Part shown: in pieces, positions 255 to 8,395 of the stretch
Layout: every line of letters begins with the position of its first letter
How positions within the stretch are numbered: the first letter of the stretch is position 1
From: Candidatus Bathyarchaeota archaeon
Lineage (GTDB): Archaea > Thermoproteota > Bathyarchaeia > TCS64
Assembly (NCBI GenBank): GCA_014729945.1
Contig: WJJC01000165.1
Coordinates: 1 to 12,952, forward strand
DNA: 12,952 bases
Direction of reading: 5' to 3'
The notes under the pieces: generated by a model
What the model was told of the DNA's origin: nothing
Database searches by the model: none
The model's input: only the letters and a program-made list of their open reading frames with translations
Position numbers and translations under genes: made by a program

Positions 255-1124
255 ATGGAACCAGTTTCTCTTGTTCATGTAGAAGATGTCGAGAAGGCAG
301 TTATAGAGAGTATAGACCTAATTGGTGGTCTTAGACTTGATCCCAGTGAAAAAGTGGTGATAAAACCCAATATTTGTAATGGGAAAAACCCCGATGGAAT
401 GGTGATAACGGATTTCCGGGTAATCAAAGCCGTTGTAGGCTTGATCCGGGAGAATGGAAACGATTTGGTTATAGTGGAGTCCGATAACATCTCAGGAACA
501 GCTGAGGAGAGGGTGATTGACTCAGGTTTAATGAGGTTACTAGATGAATGGGGTGTGGAGTTTCTCAATCTAAGTAAGGATGACTACCAAGAATACTCAG
601 TAGCCAATACAGTCCTCAGACTACCTCAAACAGTACTAGACGCTGATTACTTCATAAACATCCCTAAGATCAAGACTTGCGCCCACACACTAGTAACACT
701 AGGCATTAAGAACCTCTACGGGGTATTCCAGAGAAAACAAAAAGACAAACTCCATAGCAAACTAGATATGATACTGCCTTTTCTGGCGGAGCTTATTCGT
801 AATGATCTCATAATAGTGGATGGAATAAACTGTATGGAGGGAAACGGACCAGTAATTGGTAACCATCTCTGCATGAATATGGTTTTGGCTGGAAGAAACC
901 TTGTCTCAGTTGACTCTGTTTGCAGCTTGTTAATGGGTTATAACCCTGTAGATATTCCCCATATCGCATTATGTGCCTCAAATGGTCTTGGACCAATCGA
1001 ACCTGAATCTATACAGGTTATGGGAGAAGACTGGACAAAACATGTAAGAGACTTTGAGCCACCCTTCAGCCTTAGAGCAACACTTAAGTCGTTAAAGTCG
1101 ATAAAAGACATTTACCTGAGATAA
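255..1124 (+). CDS. DUF362 domain-containing protein, no ferredoxin domain
   Basis: This 289-residue protein has the hallmarks of DUF362: a KPN motif (residues 37-39) after a hydrophobic strand, a VIVESDN strand (72-78), an INIPKIKTC segment (135-142), the conserved GIKNLYG loop (150-156) and a VDGINCMEGNGP loop (188-199) followed by a strand ending VSVDSV. Many DUF362 proteins carry an additional C-terminal 4Fe-4S ferredoxin domain; this one has none, and its C-terminus is a basic helix. The biochemical function of most DUF362 proteins is not established, so no reaction is assigned. The ATG at 255 lies 2 bases after the preceding stop, implying one transcript with the dehydrogenase-like gene upstream. 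No signal peptide or membrane segment is visible. Family call is confident; role unknown. Confidence 0.8.
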   Translation: MEPVSLVHVEDVEKAVIESIDLIGGLRLDPSEKVVIKPNICNGKNPDGMVITDFRVIKAVVGLIRENGNDLVIVESDNISGTAEERVIDSGLMRLLDEWGVEFLNLSKDDYQEYSVANTVLRLPQTVLDADYFINIPKIKTCAHTLVTLGIKNLYGVFQRKQKDKLHSKLDMILPFLAELIRNDLIIVDGINCMEGNGPVIGNHLCMNMVLAGRNLVSVDSVCSLLMGYNPVDIPHIALCASNGLGPIEPESIQVMGEDWTKHVRDFEPPFSLRATLKSLKSIKDIYLR

Positions 1125-1220: not shown

Positions 1221-2258
1221 TTGAAGACTGGAAGACAGGTCGGGATCATTGGCTACGGAGCATATGTGCCTATGTATCGACTGGAGGCCTCAGAGATAAA
1301 CCGGGTTTGGGGAGGATTCGGTAAACCTGTTGAGGAGAAAAGCGTTGTCGCCATGGATGAAGACACTATTACTATTAGCGTTGAGGCGGCGAAACAAGCT
1401 GTAAGAAGAGCCAAGATAGATCCCAGTGATATTGGAGCGGTGTATATTGGGACGGAGTCCAAGCCATACGCCGTAAAACCAAGCGGAACTATAGTAGCCG
1501 AGGTTATAGGGGCTACTCCAAGTGTCTCTACAGCGGATTATGAGTTCGCTTGCAAGGCTGGTACAGAGGCAATGCAGACATGCATAGGCCTAGTGGGTAG
1601 CGGTATGCAGAAATATGCTATGGCTATTGGGGCTGATACCGCGCAGGGTAAACCCCATGACGCATTAGAATACACAGCGGCATGTGGGGGAGCAGCGTAT
1701 ATTTTCGCGGAAAGAACCGCGGATACTCTGGCTTATCTTGAGGCTTCATACAGTTATGTAACTGATACCCCTGACTTTTGGAGAAGAGCAAAAGAGATGT
1801 ATCCACGCCACGGGAACAGGTTCACAGGTGAGCCAGCATATTATAAACACATAACAGGAGCATCCCAAGGATTACTAGAAGAAACAGGGTACAAACCAGA
1901 GGACTTCACATGGGCGGTTTTCCATCAACCTAACACAAAGTTCCCCATTAAAGTAGCTAGAAAACTAGGGTTTTCAATGGACCAGATAGAGCCTGGGCTC
2001 GTTGTGCCCAATATAGGGAACACTTACGCCGGTAGTACACCCGTGGGTCTCGCCGCTACACTTGATATAGCAGAGCCTGAGGACACGATTTTCACGGTTA
2101 GCTACGGCTCAGGCAGCGGTAGCGATGCCTTCATTTTCACAGTACAGGACGCTATAAAGGAGAAACGTGAAGGACCCAAGTTAGCCAGGTTTATCGAGCG
2201 GAAAAAGTACGTGGATTACGCCACATACTTGAAACACAGGGGGCAGATTATCCAATGA
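1221..2258 (+). CDS. Hydroxymethylglutaryl-CoA synthase, archaeal type
   Basis: HMG-CoA synthase condenses acetyl-CoA with acetoacetyl-CoA to HMG-CoA, the committed carbon-building step of the archaeal mevalonate pathway for isoprenoid membrane lipids. The 345-residue length is normal for the archaeal family. The N-terminal [11 protein letters not shown] strand, the catalytic Glu79 in [11 protein letters not shown], the nucleophile Cys111 in EFACKAGT and His235 in FHQPN are all present, as are GADTAQG and the C-terminal [11 protein letters not shown]. The start is TTG at 1221, preceded by GAGGGT. The stop overlaps the next start in an ATGA arrangement (2255-2258), so translation is coupled to the thiolase-family gene. 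In archaea the HMGS, thiolase and DUF35 proteins form one complex that passes acetoacetyl-CoA between sites without release; the gene order here matches. All catalytic residues are intact, unlike those of its thiolase partner. Confidence 0.95.
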
Positions 2259-3391
2259 GACCCGTTAAGATAGCTGGCATAGGCATACTTAAAGTAAAAG
2301 AATATTGGGAAAAGTCCATACAGGATCTGTTCGTTGAAGCATCACTTAAAGCAATGGAGGACGCTGAGTTAACGGATATTGACAAGCTTTATGTAAGCAA
2401 CATGAGCTCAGCTTTGATGCAGGATCAACTTAACATAGGGGCCATCATGGCGGACAGCCTTGGAGTGCCCGGGATCTCAGCCACCCGCGTAGAGGCTGGA
2501 TCAGCAAGTGGAGGCGTGGCTTTCCATGAGGCAATCCAAGCCGTAGCAAGTGGTTACAGCGACGCCGTGCTGGTAACAGGCGTAGAGAAGATGAGTGATA
2601 TATTACCCGAAGTAGTTACCACTAGTCTTGCTATGGCCGAGGAACAGGAATATACTTCATACACTGGAGTAACCAAAGCCGGGGTCGCTGCGTTAATCCA
2701 TCGATTATACATGGATCGATACTCCTCACCTGAGGAAATCTGCATGATGGCTGTGAAGAGCCATGAGCATGCTGATGGATGTAGACACGCACAGTATCCG
2801 TTCAAAATGAGCTTGGAGCGAGCAATCTCTACCCCTATGGAGGCCGACCCTATACACATGATGGAGTGCTCAGGCATAGGCGATGGCGCAGCCGCTCTCC
2901 TGCTCACTCCGTCAGAAGGCGAAGGTGTGGAGGTCGCCGGGACAGCGGTAAGCACAGATTACACCAGCATAGCTCAGAGACATAACCCACTGGAGATGAA
3001 GGCTATCAAGACCGCTGCAAACAGAGCATACAAGATGGCCGGGATCAAGGCAAATGAGATAGACCTAGTGGAGGTACAGGATGATTATACAATCAACGGT
3101 ATCTTGGGAATCGAGGGACTGGGCCTAGCAGAGACAGGTGAAGGCGCGAAACTGGTCAACAGCGATGAGGTTGATAGAGAAGGCAAGATACCTGTAAACA
3201 CTTTCGGTGGACTAAAGGCGAGGGGCAATCCCATAGGTGCCACTGGTTTATACCAGTTAGCCGAGATAACAATGCAGCTCCAAGGAAAAGCTGGAGACCA
3301 TCAAGTCGAAGACGCTGAGTATGGTGTAGCCCAGAACATGGGTGGTATGGCGTCGATATGCGCAATAAACGTACTTAGGAGGAGACAATAA
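2255..3391 (+). CDS. Thiolase-family protein lacking the catalytic residues (putative pseudo-thiolase of the HMGS complex)
   Basis: At 378 residues this is a full-length archaeal SCP2-like thiolase homologue, in the gene position of the acetoacetyl-CoA thiolase of the HMGS complex. Fold signatures remain: [19 protein letters not shown] (97-115), GDGAAALLL (209-217), the [15 protein letters not shown] loop (317-331) and the C-terminal NMGGMAS. The active-site positions are changed. Ser83 (codon TCA at 2501-2503, in VEAGSASGG) replaces the acyl-accepting Cys of the family's ACASG motif. Gln275-Asp276-Asp277 replaces His-Asp-Cys of HDCFT. Arg323-Gly324-Asn325 replaces the x-Gly-His of the GHPxGATG loop. 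Classical Claisen condensation or thiolysis through an acyl-cysteine therefore looks impossible. The frame is open, and start and stop overlap both neighbours, so this is not a decayed gene. It may be a structural or acetoacetyl-CoA-handling subunit, or it may run different chemistry, as the Cys-less thiolase-fold aldolase Ltp2 does with its DUF35 partner. Confidence 0.85.
3377..3385 (+). promoter_or_regulatory. Strong Shine-Dalgarno for the DUF35 gene inside the thiolase 3' end
   Basis: AGGAGGAGA lies 5 bases before the ATG at 3391, embedded in the last codons of the thiolase gene. With the 1-base overlap of TAA and ATG it indicates reinitiation or coupled translation. Confidence 0.6.
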
Positions 3392-3783
3392 TGAGTGTAC
3401 CAAGATACTGGAGAAACGAGGTGCCACGTTACAGGCTCCAAGGAAATGAATGCACACAGTGCGGTGCAAGATATTTCCCATCACGACCTATATGCAAATG
3501 CGGCTCAAACAAGTTCAGTCCATACAAACTTGCTGAGAGGGGAATTATAGTAAGCTGGACCATTATAAGCAACCCCCCGATAGGGTTCGAGAAATATGTG
3601 CCATACGCTGTGGCCCTTATCGAGTTGGATGATGGGAACAAGCTGCTGAGCCAGGTTGTCGATGTAGACCCAGAGGAATTAGAAGTGGGCTTAAGAGTCG
3701 AAGCAGTCTTCCGTAAGGTAAAAGAAGATGGAAAAGACGGCATCATACAGTATGGATACAAGTTCCGCCCCATCGTTGAGTAA
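3391..3783 (+). CDS. DUF35 zinc-ribbon/OB-fold protein, scaffold of the HMGS-thiolase complex
   Basis: This 130-residue protein has an N-terminal rubredoxin-like zinc ribbon (Cys21, Cys24, Cys35, Cys37) preceded by the typical YRLQGNECTQCG lead, and a C-terminal OB fold (about residues 50-128) starting at the SWTII strand. In archaea this protein bridges the thiolase and HMG-CoA synthase and its OB fold helps form the shared CoA-binding site. The first pair is CX2C as usual, but the second reads Cys-Lys-Cys (CXC), one residue shorter than the common CX2C knuckle, which may change zinc geometry. The gene overlaps the thiolase stop by one base and has a strong ribosome-binding site, so it is the third member of the operon. 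The call is secure; whether the ribbon binds zinc normally is unknown. Confidence 0.9.
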   Translation: MSVPRYWRNEVPRYRLQGNECTQCGARYFPSRPICKCGSNKFSPYKLAERGIIVSWTIISNPPIGFEKYVPYAVALIELDDGNKLLSQVVDVDPEELEVGLRVEAVFRKVKEDGKDGIIQYGYKFRPIVE

Positions 3784-3831: not shown

Positions 3832-5361
3832 ATGGCTCCACGAACAAAATACGACAAAATATCTGAGATAGCTAAACGAAGAGGCTTCTTTTGGCCCAGC
3901 TTTGAGATCTATGGCGGTATGAGCGGCTTCACGACTTATGGAGACCTAGGAACTAAGCTTAAGAATAACATCGAGAGACTCTGGAAAGAATACTTTGTAC
4001 GAAAACAGGGCTTCCTTGAACTAGAAGCACCTATTATTAATCCGGAACGAGTGTTTGAGGCATCAGGGCACCTAGAGAATTTTAAAGAGTATAGCTCAGA
4101 GTGCAGTCAATGTGGACATAGTTTCAGAACCGATCACCTGATCGAGGAGAAGACTGGTATGGAGAACGTGGAGGCTATGGGTGGTGTAGCCATCAAGAGT
4201 CTGCTGATGGATCACAAGATAAAGTGTCCCCGATGCGGTGGAGCGCTACAGGAACCAGAACTAATCCTAACCATGTTCAAGACAGAGATAGGCGCCACAG
4301 GTGGGGCCATAGGTTACCTACGCCCAGAGACAGCGCAGGCCATGTTCCTCAACTATAAACGAGGAATAATCCATGCGAGGGAGAAACTGCCCTTCGCTTT
4401 GGTCCAGAGCAGTAAAGTAGCACGCAACGAGATTAGCCCTCGTAGGGGTATGCTGAGACTCAGGGAGTTTACCATCATGGAGCTGGAGTTGTTCTTCGAC
4501 CCGGAGGATCCTGCTTGCCCATGGTTTGATGACGTTAAAGATATGGTGATACGTTTCTATACAGAGGAGATGGAGGAGAACCAAGTCAAAGAGCCCAAGG
4601 TCTTAACGGTGGAGGAGGCAGTAAACAAGGAACTAATCTTAACCGAGTGGCAGGGCTACTTTATGGGGCTTAGCCAGCAATTCATGGCCGCGTTGAATAT
4701 ACCAGAAGAGCATCAGAGATTCAGGGCCCATCTGCCGGATGAGAGAGCCCACTACAGTGCTCAGACCTATGACCATGAGGTAAAACTGGATACTTGGGGT
4801 TGGACAGAGGTCTCGGGATGCGCTTACCGTACTGACTTTGATCTTAAAAATCATCAAGCGTCCAGTGGGGAGAGTATGGATGTGCTCAGAGAGGATGGAA
4901 CCCGATTCATACCCCACGTGGTTGAGCCAAGTTACGGTCTGGACAGACTGGTATATATTGCTATGGAGAACAATTATGAGCGGAAGAAAAAAAGGAACAT
5001 ATTCCACTTCCCAAGGGAACTCGCGCCATACCAGATAGCGTTATTCCCTCTAGTAACTAAGGATGGTGTTGACGATAAGGCCGAGGAAGTACGTGACCTT
5101 CTACTGGATAAAGGCTTCTGGTTAATATATGATGACAGTGGAAGCGTTGGTAGACGTTACGCCCGAGTAGACGAGATTGGTGTACCCTTAGCTGTAACCG
5201 TGGATTATACTACAAGAGACGAGGATATCCTAACCATCAGAGACAGGGATACATGGGAACAGGTAAAATTGCCTGTAAAGGAACTTCCTAACGCACTGGA
5301 AGCCTATTATAAACGGGAAAAGGAGTTCCATGAACTCGGGGAAAAAGTAGTCCGAGGCTAA
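3832..5361 (+). CDS. glyS: Glycyl-tRNA synthetase, dimeric class II type
   Basis: GlyRS charges tRNA-Gly with glycine in the cytoplasm. The 509-residue protein begins with the family's KISEIAKRRGFFWPSFEIYGG and GFTTYGDLGT segments. Motif 1 surrounds Pro67 (PIINPERVFEASGH). An inserted zinc-binding module has two CX2C pairs (Cys91/Cys94 and Cys132/Cys135). RPETAQ at 164-169 is the glycine-system signature, motif 2 spans 198-221 (RNEISPRRGMLRLREF), and motif 3 is EPSYGLDRL at 365-373. A HGTP anticodon-binding domain follows (about 397-490). The length is near the short bacterial alpha2 form and less than the roughly 570 residues common in archaea. It is preceded by its own TATA box with almost no leader. 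Its stop overlaps the stop of the convergent CinA-like gene by 4 bases. Confidence 0.95.
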   Translation: MAPRTKYDKISEIAKRRGFFWPSFEIYGGMSGFTTYGDLGTKLKNNIERLWKEYFVRKQGFLELEAPIINPERVFEASGHLENFKEYSSECSQCGHSFRTDHLIEEKTGMENVEAMGGVAIKSLLMDHKIKCPRCGGALQEPELILTMFKTEIGATGGAIGYLRPETAQAMFLNYKRGIIHAREKLPFALVQSSKVARNEISPRRGMLRLREFTIMELELFFDPEDPACPWFDDVKDMVIRFYTEEMEENQVKEPKVLTVEEAVNKELILTEWQGYFMGLSQQFMAALNIPEEHQRFRAHLPDERAHYSAQTYDHEVKLDTWGWTEVSGCAYRTDFDLKNHQASSGESMDVLREDGTRFIPHVVEPSYGLDRLVYIAMENNYERKKKRNIFHFPRELAPYQIALFPLVTKDGVDDKAEEVRDLLLDKGFWLIYDDSGSVGRRYARVDEIGVPLAVTVDYTTRDEDILTIRDRDTWEQVKLPVKELPNALEAYYKREKEFHELGEKVVRG

Positions 5362-6905: not shown

Positions 6906-8081
6906 TTAGCAGTGTCCTAGAAACCTCTCGGCTTCTCTGCTACGTTTGAATACAATGAAATCATTGTACCCTAGGGCTTCTGCTTTGGTCTGTCTACCAT
7001 TAGCTGTGTGGATTATCATATCGTAGATGCGTTGTCCTACACCGTTTAGACTCTCACTACCATCTAGAATTGTGCCCGCGTTGATATCCATGTTATCAGT
7101 CATTTTATTGAATGTTTTTGGATTTCCCGTGATCTTTATCACTGGTGCGACGGCATGTCCTGTTGTACTTCCCCTCCCACTCGTGAAGCAGACGATCTGA
7201 GCCCCTGCTGCCACCATATGAGTGACGCTGGGGACATCCCATCCGGGGCCATCCATAAGGTAGAGACCAGACTCTGAGGGGGTGTCAAACCTCTCCCAGT
7301 TATTATAAAGCACACCCTGTATTGTTTTGGTTCCGCCTTTACGAACAGCTCCAAGACTCTTCTCTTCTAATGTGGTTAATCCTCCGTCAATGTTTCCTTT
7401 GCTCATCCATCTGCTATCAACACCCATTGCTTTCTGTCGAGCCTCCTGTTTCTCAATAACCTCATAGATGGATTCTGCTACTTCCTCGTTGACTGCTCTA
7501 TTAGCTAGGACATGCTGGGTGCCTATCATCTCTTGAGTCTCACCGAACATCACGGTTCCTCCTTCTTCTATGAGTTTATCCGCTGCTACACCTACAGCTG
7601 GGTTGGCTGCTAGTCCACTTGTTGCGTCGCTCCCTCCGCACTCGATTGCTAGGATGAGTTTGCTAGCTGGGAAGGGTTCTCTTTTAAGTTCTGCTATTTC
7701 TTGTTTCATCTCTTGGAGTATCCTGACTCCTTTTTCGTGGGTTTTCAGGGTTCCCCCTTCTTCTTGTATTGTGATGTTGTGTACTGGTTTTCCACTGGGC
7801 TCAATATGTTCCATAAGGATATCCCCGGTTAGTGTCTCACAGCCCAGCCCCACAATGAGAACACCGGCCACATTAGGGTTAAGAGCTGAACCAGCCAGAT
7901 TATGAACCAACATACTGTCATTTCCACATCCATAGGTCTGGGTTACTGCGACGGCGCCCTCGACTTGTTCCGCTATTTTTTTCGCTGGTTCATAGCTACA
8001 ATCTATGGGGGCTATTACCAGTAAATGGTTTCTTATTCCCACTTTTCCATCTGGTCTCTCGTATCCATAAAACTCTGTCAT
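6906..8081 (-). CDS. UxaA-family dehydratase, large (catalytic C-terminal) subunit
   Basis: This 391-residue protein matches the C-terminal domain of altronate/galactarate dehydratases and of sulfolactate sulfo-lyase SuyB. It opens with GYERPDGKVGIRNHLLV, has YGCGND (Cys52) and GLGCET (Cys81), and the strongly conserved ECGGSDATSGLAANPAVG (147-164). The later FTSGRGSTTGHAVAP and NAGTILDG loops are also typical. Such enzymes remove water from a sugar acid to give a 2-keto-3-deoxy acid, or sulfite from (2R)-3-sulfolactate, using a divalent metal; the substrate cannot be read from sequence. The N-terminal SAF domain found fused in bacterial UxaA is a separate gene immediately upstream, with a 4-base ATGA overlap (8078-8081), so the enzyme is probably a two-subunit complex. 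A LarA-family epimerase/racemase lies about 900 bases away on the same strand, suggesting linked 2-hydroxy-acid chemistry. Confidence 0.88.
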   Translation of the reverse strand: MTEFYGYERPDGKVGIRNHLLVIAPIDCSYEPAKKIAEQVEGAVAVTQTYGCGNDSMLVHNLAGSALNPNVAGVLIVGLGCETLTGDILMEHIEPSGKPVHNITIQEEGGTLKTHEKGVRILQEMKQEIAELKREPFPASKLILAIECGGSDATSGLAANPAVGVAADKLIEEGGTVMFGETQEMIGTQHVLANRAVNEEVAESIYEVIEKQEARQKAMGVDSRWMSKGNIDGGLTTLEEKSLGAVRKGGTKTIQGVLYNNWERFDTPSESGLYLMDGPGWDVPSVTHMVAAGAQIVCFTSGRGSTTGHAVAPVIKITGNPKTFNKMTDNMDINAGTILDGSESLNGVGQRIYDMIIHTANGRQTKAEALGYNDFIVFKRSREAERFLGHC

Positions 8082-8395
8082 GATGTTATCCCCTGTACTT
8101 CTTCTCCAGGGGTATGCATCCGTGCACTGTTAGCGTTATGAGTGTGAATCCATTCACCGACTTTGATGGGCTTAGATGCCACCCCGATAACCTCTCCATA
8201 TTTTATTATCTCATCATTCACGGCCAAGTCCTGTAAAGCGATTTTGTGGCCGAAAATAATTCCCTCCACTGGCTTTGTTTTGAGTATTACTTCCCCGTTT
8301 GGGTTTAGCACCTCTATTTCTTCCCCCTTTTCCACGATATCTGTAGTTGTGGCTACGTTATCTTCTGTATCTATCTGGATAGCCTTTTTTGACAT
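8078..8395 (-). CDS. UxaA-family dehydratase, small SAF-domain subunit
   Basis: The 105-residue protein is a stand-alone SAF (UxaA N-terminal) domain. It contains the typical opening in which the N-terminus reads as a small beta-rich domain with 'DNVATTTDIVEKGEEIEV', then FGHKIALQDLAVNDEIIKYGEVIG, and closes with the GEWIHTHN motif (His84 and His86), which is the metal/substrate-binding HxH of this family. SuyA, the small subunit of sulfolactate sulfo-lyase, has the same architecture, so that is the main alternative. The ATG at 8395 is about 28 bases after a TTTAATAAT box on the minus strand (8419-8427), giving a leaderless start. The stop overlaps the start of the large subunit by 4 bases, coupling their translation one to one. 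Confidence 0.88.
   Translation of the reverse strand: MSKKAIQIDTEDNVATTTDIVEKGEEIEVLNPNGEVILKTKPVEGIIFGHKIALQDLAVNDEIIKYGEVIGVASKPIKVGEWIHTHNANSARMHTPGEEVQGITS

Follow-up and report, generated by a model that had tools for sequence, protein, structure and literature searches.

The archaeal HMG-CoA synthase (HMGS) complex is a reference case of substrate channelling from a thiolase to HMGS. In the complex of Methanothermococcus thermolithotrophicus (6ESQ, 6ET9), a DUF35 protein links thiolase and HMGS, and CoA is bound where the three proteins meet (PMC6392133, PMC12329534, PMC6996347; these articles are cited from excerpts throughout), with thiolase and HMGS sharing one CoA site (PMC12329534). 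The homologous three-subunit acyltransferase PhlABC of Pseudomonas protegens (5M3K) contains one thiolase-superfamily subunit without catalytic residues, the HMGS-like PhlA. With its Cys and Glu missing, PhlA takes no direct part in acyl transfer, yet very likely has to be present for the complex to function; the thiolase subunit, PhlC, is alive (PMC6392133). A thiolase fold bound to DUF35 also occurs in the steroid aldolases Ltp2-ChsH2 and Sal-Shy, in which ChsH2 and Shy are the DUF35 proteins, and in CtSal the nucleophilic Cys is replaced by Gly (PMC12329534). The Ltp2/Sal enzymes carry a catalytic Tyr in a YDxF/Y motif and are partnered with a hydratase. Two further thiolase-like proteins have altered nucleophile positions: TbSLP of Trypanosoma brucei (5AB4-5AB7), which lacks the Cys residues of SCP2-thiolase (PMC12329534) and was crystallised with acetoacetyl-CoA, and the archaeal ST0096 of Sulfolobus tokodaii (4YZO), which has Ser at the nucleophile position. 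Titles and abstract starts among the literature matches listed did not point to any article on inactive thiolases encoded in archaeal HMGS operons; neither thiolase nor AACT was found in the main text of PMC11052028, on archaeal isoprenoid pathways, and the main text of PMC6249222, on essential genes of Sulfolobus islandicus, gave no match for the terms queried.

The locus compared here with these systems belongs to a Candidatus Bathyarchaeota archaeon and lies in a stretch of 12,952 nucleotides (contig WJJC01000165.1), hereafter the window. Three forward-strand genes stand together in it: HMGS (1221..2258), a thiolase-fold protein of 378 amino acids with an ATG start (2255..3391) and a DUF35 zinc-ribbon/OB-fold subunit (3391..3783). 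HMGS overlaps the thiolase gene by 4 nt, and the thiolase stop overlaps the DUF35 start by 1 nt. The HMGS product scores 533 bits against TIGR00748 (cut-off 353) and retains Glu79, Cys111 and His235, as in the Methanothermococcus complex, and the DUF35 protein retains C21, C24, C35 and C37, all four of which are kept in the rows read from an alignment of relatives. Its second zinc-ribbon Cys pair is CxC, not CxxC, as it is in part of the clade. The immediate neighbours, also on the forward strand, are a DUF362 protein upstream (255..1124), present in 8 of 13 related loci, and glycyl-tRNA synthetase downstream (3832..5361), which is linked to HMGS, thiolase and DUF35 in all 13, some of these loci ending at contig ends. 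Further along the window, on the reverse strand (6906-8395), a galactarate-dehydratase-like protein is split into two overlapping genes encoding an N-terminal part of 105 aa and a C-terminal part of 391 aa.

The thiolase-fold protein departs from active thiolases at three active-site motifs, reading RVEAG-S83-ASGG, EV-Q275-D276-D277-Y278 and KAR323-G324-N325-P. Alignment to structures and relatives places Ser83 (2501..2503) at the nucleophilic Cys, Gln275-Asp276-Asp277 (3077..3085) at His-Asp-x and Asn325 (3227..3229) at the His of the GHP loop, the equivalent residues being Cys, His-Asp-Ala and Gly-His in 7yvy and Cys, His-Asp-Cys and Gly-His in 6esq, the Methanothermococcus thiolase. These substitutions had been read in the same way in the initial annotation of this DNA, which further held that all expected catalytic residues were lost. 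That stands for Cys83, His275 and His325, and not for the third residue of His-Asp-x, which is not fixed: HDC, HDA, HDT and HDS all co-occur with Cys and GH in archaeal thiolases, so that the firm losses are the former three. Its observation that fold motifs, reading frame and operon overlaps are kept is borne out by the gene layout and by an AlphaFold model built from 50 sequences (pLDDT 94.7). A Foldseek search with this model returned 7yvy first by E-value, and among the best 50 structures listed 6et9 and 6esq were the closest by TM-score and rmsd (0.95, 1.6 Å); the protein is thus predicted to belong to the thiolase fold. It falls short of the curated cut-off of the archaeal acetoacetyl-CoA thiolase model NF004720 (391.8 against 420), as do three other altered thiolases (392.7, 316.3, 382.7), while three intact operon thiolases (520.9, 585.4, 545.0) and two stand-alone intact ones (461.9, 454.5) exceed it. 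NF053570 (cut-off 600) is non-discriminating, since intact thiolases (464.8, 567.6, 411.7) score below its cut-off along with the window protein (348.8). Nor does the protein fit other described active sites: QDDY lacks the catalytic Tyr of the steroid aldolases, and both ST0096 (27-28% identity), which keeps HD and GH, and TbSLP, which is eukaryotic, has a YDCF motif and has no DUF35 partner, differ from it. The KASIII and chalcone-synthase type is defined by a Cys-His-Asn triad, where the window protein has Ser, Gln and Asn.

The alteration is shared by the close relatives. A protein search with the window thiolase returned 4894 matches, and in the best 120 of these, query included, 114 carry Ser at position 83, three carry Cys, and Asn, Ala and Thr occur there once each. 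At position 275 there are 97 Gln and 23 His, and at position 325 there are 119 Asn and a single His, while D276-D277 is present in all; the combination of Cys, His and His occurs in none of the 120. Where named, these matches come from Bathyarchaeota, Thermoproteota or an archaeon. A scan across named genomes yielded 13 loci, all from Candidatus Bathyarchaeota, and here too every operon thiolase is without the Cys (Ser in nine, Gln in three, Ala in one). The Cys-His-Asn triad is present in three relatives (P0082, P0099 and P0112, with Cys together with HDD and Asn) and in genome G264, whose sole PF22691 thiolase is Cys/His/Asn; given these Cys-bearing proteins, Asn325 alone need not abolish activity. 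The recurrence of the pattern in the 120 listed proteins, together with low dN/dS in altered relatives (see below), rules out chance, sequencing error, an assembly slip or a pseudogene, and confirms the altered residues as a real, family-wide feature. We read the window protein, with a probability of roughly two in three, as a catalytically dead pseudothiolase, retained because the HMGS/thiolase/DUF35 complex requires it as a subunit, with acetoacetyl-CoA made elsewhere.

Operon thiolases were read at two levels, a class and a phylum sample. The class around genome G003 comprises 256 genomes, 41 with an HMGS match over the cut-off, and the operon thiolase was read in 43 genomes, namely 39 of these 41 and the lower-scoring G011 and G035-G037; G238, whose contig does not carry the thiolase, and G225, which carries an HMGS-DUF35 fusion, were left out. 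Altered thiolases were found in 32 of the 43 and Cys-bearing ones in 11, and HMGS retains Glu79, Cys111 and His235 in 31 of the 32 altered genomes, the remaining one being cut before two of the sites. Elsewhere in the class, most genomes match HMGS only at lower scores, and many of these matches lie in frames of about 500 aa, a size frequent among HMGS-like frames in this class; the few loci read there have Cys in the adjacent thiolase. Five loci (L122, L123, L030, L191 and L193) encode, beside a Cys-bearing thiolase, a protein of about 500 aa in which HMGS is preceded by a fused DUF35-like part. The thiolase adjoining the fusion in G225 (locus L119) is likewise without the nucleophilic Cys (TTSSAS), perhaps through a further independent loss. 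In the phylum sample, 220 of 398 genomes carry HMGS at an E-value of 1e-110 or better, and 68 loci were read, drawn from the highest scorers and so not a random set. All 68 HMGS frames keep Glu, Cys and His. A thiolase ORF is present in 56 of these loci, with Cys in 38 (one of them Cys-His-Asn) and altered in 18. Among the 12 loci lacking one, nine genomes carry a single intact thiolase elsewhere, and the other three carry an altered Asp-type thiolase and DUF35 away from HMGS, plus intact thiolases.

The initial annotation had proposed a tree of the thiolases and dN/dS across close relatives as checks. A quick tree of 99 thiolases, in which several altered rows form long branches and the Sulfolobus type is absent, requires at least three independent losses of the nucleophile in the phylum sample, forced by well-supported branches: in a large group that includes Bathyarchaeota, in the Pyrobaculum type and in a third group. 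An AU test (p 0.27) neither established nor rejected one common loss within the Bathyarchaeota class. Proteins of Thermoproteus, Caldivirga and Vulcanisaeta are Asp-type like those of Pyrobaculum. The Sulfolobus type is represented by P0210, Sulfolobus islandicus AcaB-1, annotated as acetyl-CoA C-acetyltransferase (acetoacetyl-CoA thiolase) and carrying Asp, HDS and His; its relatives occur in nine of 200 phylum genomes, and the eight loci of this type that were read all have the order HMGS-thiolase-DUF35, with the nucleophile replaced by Asp and a Tyr as the loop residue. Across altered operon thiolases the nucleophile position is S, A, Q, D, G, N, T or E, a variability that fits a position no longer used for chemistry; because of it, one new chemistry common to all altered proteins is not favoured. 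The operon thiolases of G410, G365, G360, G345 and G444 combine Gly at this position with YDDY. At loci L014, L015 and L125, a protein of another thiolase family, near a DUF35-like gene, has Ala at the nucleophile (SAASG) and keeps HDAF and GH.

Selection on the altered proteins was assessed with our own Nei-Gojobori script in 11 close pairs, all formed between relatives rather than with the window protein. These pairs gave dN/dS values of 0.053-0.152, compared with 0.038 and 0.067 for two pairs of intact operon thiolases. The altered thiolases are under purifying selection, and this strong constraint may be slightly weaker than that on intact ones. Conservation was then scored over 78 columns, each shared by 90% or more of a set of 49 intact operon thiolases, and the 25-member window clade keeps 60 of them in at least 80% of its members, is intermediate at 13 and has lost five. 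Two of the five are Cys83 and His325 (chance about 0.003 by hand calculation), the intact set having itself been chosen by Cys83, His275 and His325. The earlier proposal that selection keeps the protein and not its thiolase chemistry is favoured by the low dN/dS in relatives, by the 60 retained columns and by the presence of both residues among the five lost. In pairwise distances, the ratio of thiolase to HMGS has a median of 1.74 in the window clade (297 pairs) and is 1.67 in an Asp-type clade (10 pairs), 0.98 in five genomes with both subunits alive-looking (10 pairs) and 0.47 in three genomes with a dead-looking HMGS (3 pairs). In the sampled genomes, the subunit that loses its residues evolves faster yet persists.

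The window clade has also fixed 15 new residues, 11 of them at 114-137 and 175-196, and together with D276-D277, invariant in the 120 listed proteins, they are more than drift of a scaffold would call for, which suggests a specific role beyond bulk and leaves room for a new ligand-binding or catalytic function. The altered pocket might accordingly catalyse an aldol reaction, a decarboxylation or a hydrolysis of some other acyl-CoA substrate, by analogy with Ltp2/Sal, a possibility that gains from the combination of Gly and Y-D-D-Y in the five genomes named above, which resembles the Gly and YDCY of CtSal (PMC12329534). We consider such a retooled enzyme unlikely: altered lineages differ greatly in the nucleophile, in residue 275 and in loop residue 325 although the operon is the same, which does not suggest one shared reaction, and the gene has kept its place beside HMGS, with DUF362 and glycyl-tRNA synthetase as immediate neighbours in the window. 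Slightly less probable again is a gate or sensor whose pocket would bind acetoacetyl-CoA and hand it to HMGS, or regulate HMGS, without chemistry. The 60 retained columns and the TbSLP structure with acetoacetyl-CoA (5ab6) agree with this role, and a shared CoA site like that of the homologous complex (PMC6392133, PMC12329534) would permit loading from outside, as we infer; the idea overlaps the pseudothiolase reading, and the two make the same predictions at the level of sequence.

The pseudothiolase reading has a mirror image in genomes G035-G037 (loci L069-L071 and L203). There the operon thiolase is intact, but the adjoining HMGS has Ser or Thr for its catalytic Glu, Gly for the Cys and Pro for the His; another HMGS (520-559 aa), encoded elsewhere in the genome, has all three residues. 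Among 120 listed relatives of the dead HMGS, five (P0241-P0245) share the dead pattern as far as they are readable, two otherwise lack the residues and 113 keep Glu, Cys and His. The dead HMGS has a dN/dS of 0.19-0.21 (3 pairs) versus 0.08-0.09 for its thiolase. This archaeal operon resembles PhlABC, with a dead HMGS-like subunit and a live thiolase, and the window is the reverse.

Thiolases were scanned with PF00108 in the class and PF22691 in the phylum, and both facts were available for 84 genomes, 12 Cys-bearing phylum genomes being left out of the scan. An intact second thiolase was found in 42 of 48 genomes with an altered operon thiolase and a second thiolase in three of 36 with a Cys-bearing one, with the second copy of Cys-bearing G432 counted from the scan alone and that of G013 readable in its Cys part only. 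Fisher's test gives p 7e-14 for this link and ignores ancestry; on the tree, from which rows too short (G219 and G254, altered; G228, Cys) were left out, it reduces to three independent pairs, for which a sign test is not significant. The association is confounded by ancestry. The six altered genomes with no whole intact second thiolase are G001, G002, G007, G216, G256 and G471, and in G002 an intact-type copy is split over two frames. G241, a single 2.3 Mb contig, encodes exactly two thiolases, the altered one of the operon and an intact one elsewhere. In G241 and G003 the intact second thiolase neighbours DUF35, enoyl-CoA hydratase-like and 3-hydroxybutyryl-CoA dehydrogenase-like (3-hydroxyacyl-CoA dehydrogenase-like) genes, which fall below model cut-offs, and four more such loci have similar-looking neighbours as far as the beginnings of their sequences show. 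By analogy with these relatives, the organism of the window probably also encodes a second thiolase. For HMGR, the TIGR00533 model matched 29 of 34 genomes weakly and always below its cut-off.

Ser occurs at the nucleophile position of some thiolase-superfamily enzymes. That the window protein is still a thiolase, using Ser83 or another residue such as C176 or C369, which have no counterpart in 6esq (C205 aligns with a Cys of that intact protein), is highly improbable given the Ala, Gln or Gly at position 83 in related genomes, the added loss of His275 and His325, the presence of C176 in only 68% of the window clade, the intact second copy in most altered genomes and the inactivity of a Cys-to-Ala variant of PhlC (PMC6392133).

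The suggestion that the protein is a pseudoenzyme subunit of the HMGS complex, already made in the initial annotation, is thus the one we favour from comparative sequence evidence: the operon is retained, at least three independent losses of the nucleophile have occurred, a second thiolase is usual in altered genomes, and both the dead HMGS operons and PhlABC offer parallels. DUF35 would hold thiolase and HMGS together in a complex that probably assembles in the organism of the window as it does in Methanothermococcus, and the CoA site at the thiolase-HMGS interface would be built from all three proteins, so that HMGS would still need the body of the thiolase after the thiolase reaction had become dispensable. 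The window protein itself would have no thiolase activity. Acetoacetyl-CoA would then come from an outside source, either the second intact thiolase, the 3-hydroxybutyryl-CoA dehydrogenase of the beta-oxidation-like cluster or both, and HMGS would consume what is externally supplied. In Thermoproteales and Sulfolobales, 4-hydroxybutyrate cycles are a plausible source. The autotrophic cycles of Pyrobaculum and Metallosphaera convert crotonyl-CoA to acetoacetyl-CoA, in Pyrobaculum via crotonase/3-hydroxybutyryl-CoA dehydrogenase and in Metallosphaera via several enzymes (PMC7078158, from excerpts), and this acetoacetyl-CoA may feed HMGS in both. More tentatively, and with the odds somewhat against so broad a generalisation, at least three lineages (the Bathyarchaeota group, the Pyrobaculum type and the third group), along with the Sulfolobus type, may have uncoupled the first mevalonate step from the HMGS complex. 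Carbon fixation or beta-oxidation would then feed HMGS, and what was once the thiolase would serve as a docking port for acetoacetyl-CoA.

If many archaea keep the complex with a dead thiolase, including the culturable Pyrobaculum and Sulfolobus types, channelling would not be its sole purpose. The labels acetyl-CoA acetyltransferase and acetoacetyl-CoA thiolase on such genes would be misannotations in these archaea, and the synthesis of their membrane lipids would be tied to another source of acetoacetyl-CoA. Operons with a dead thiolase and those with a dead HMGS would together provide a natural experiment on why multi-enzyme complexes retain dead subunits.
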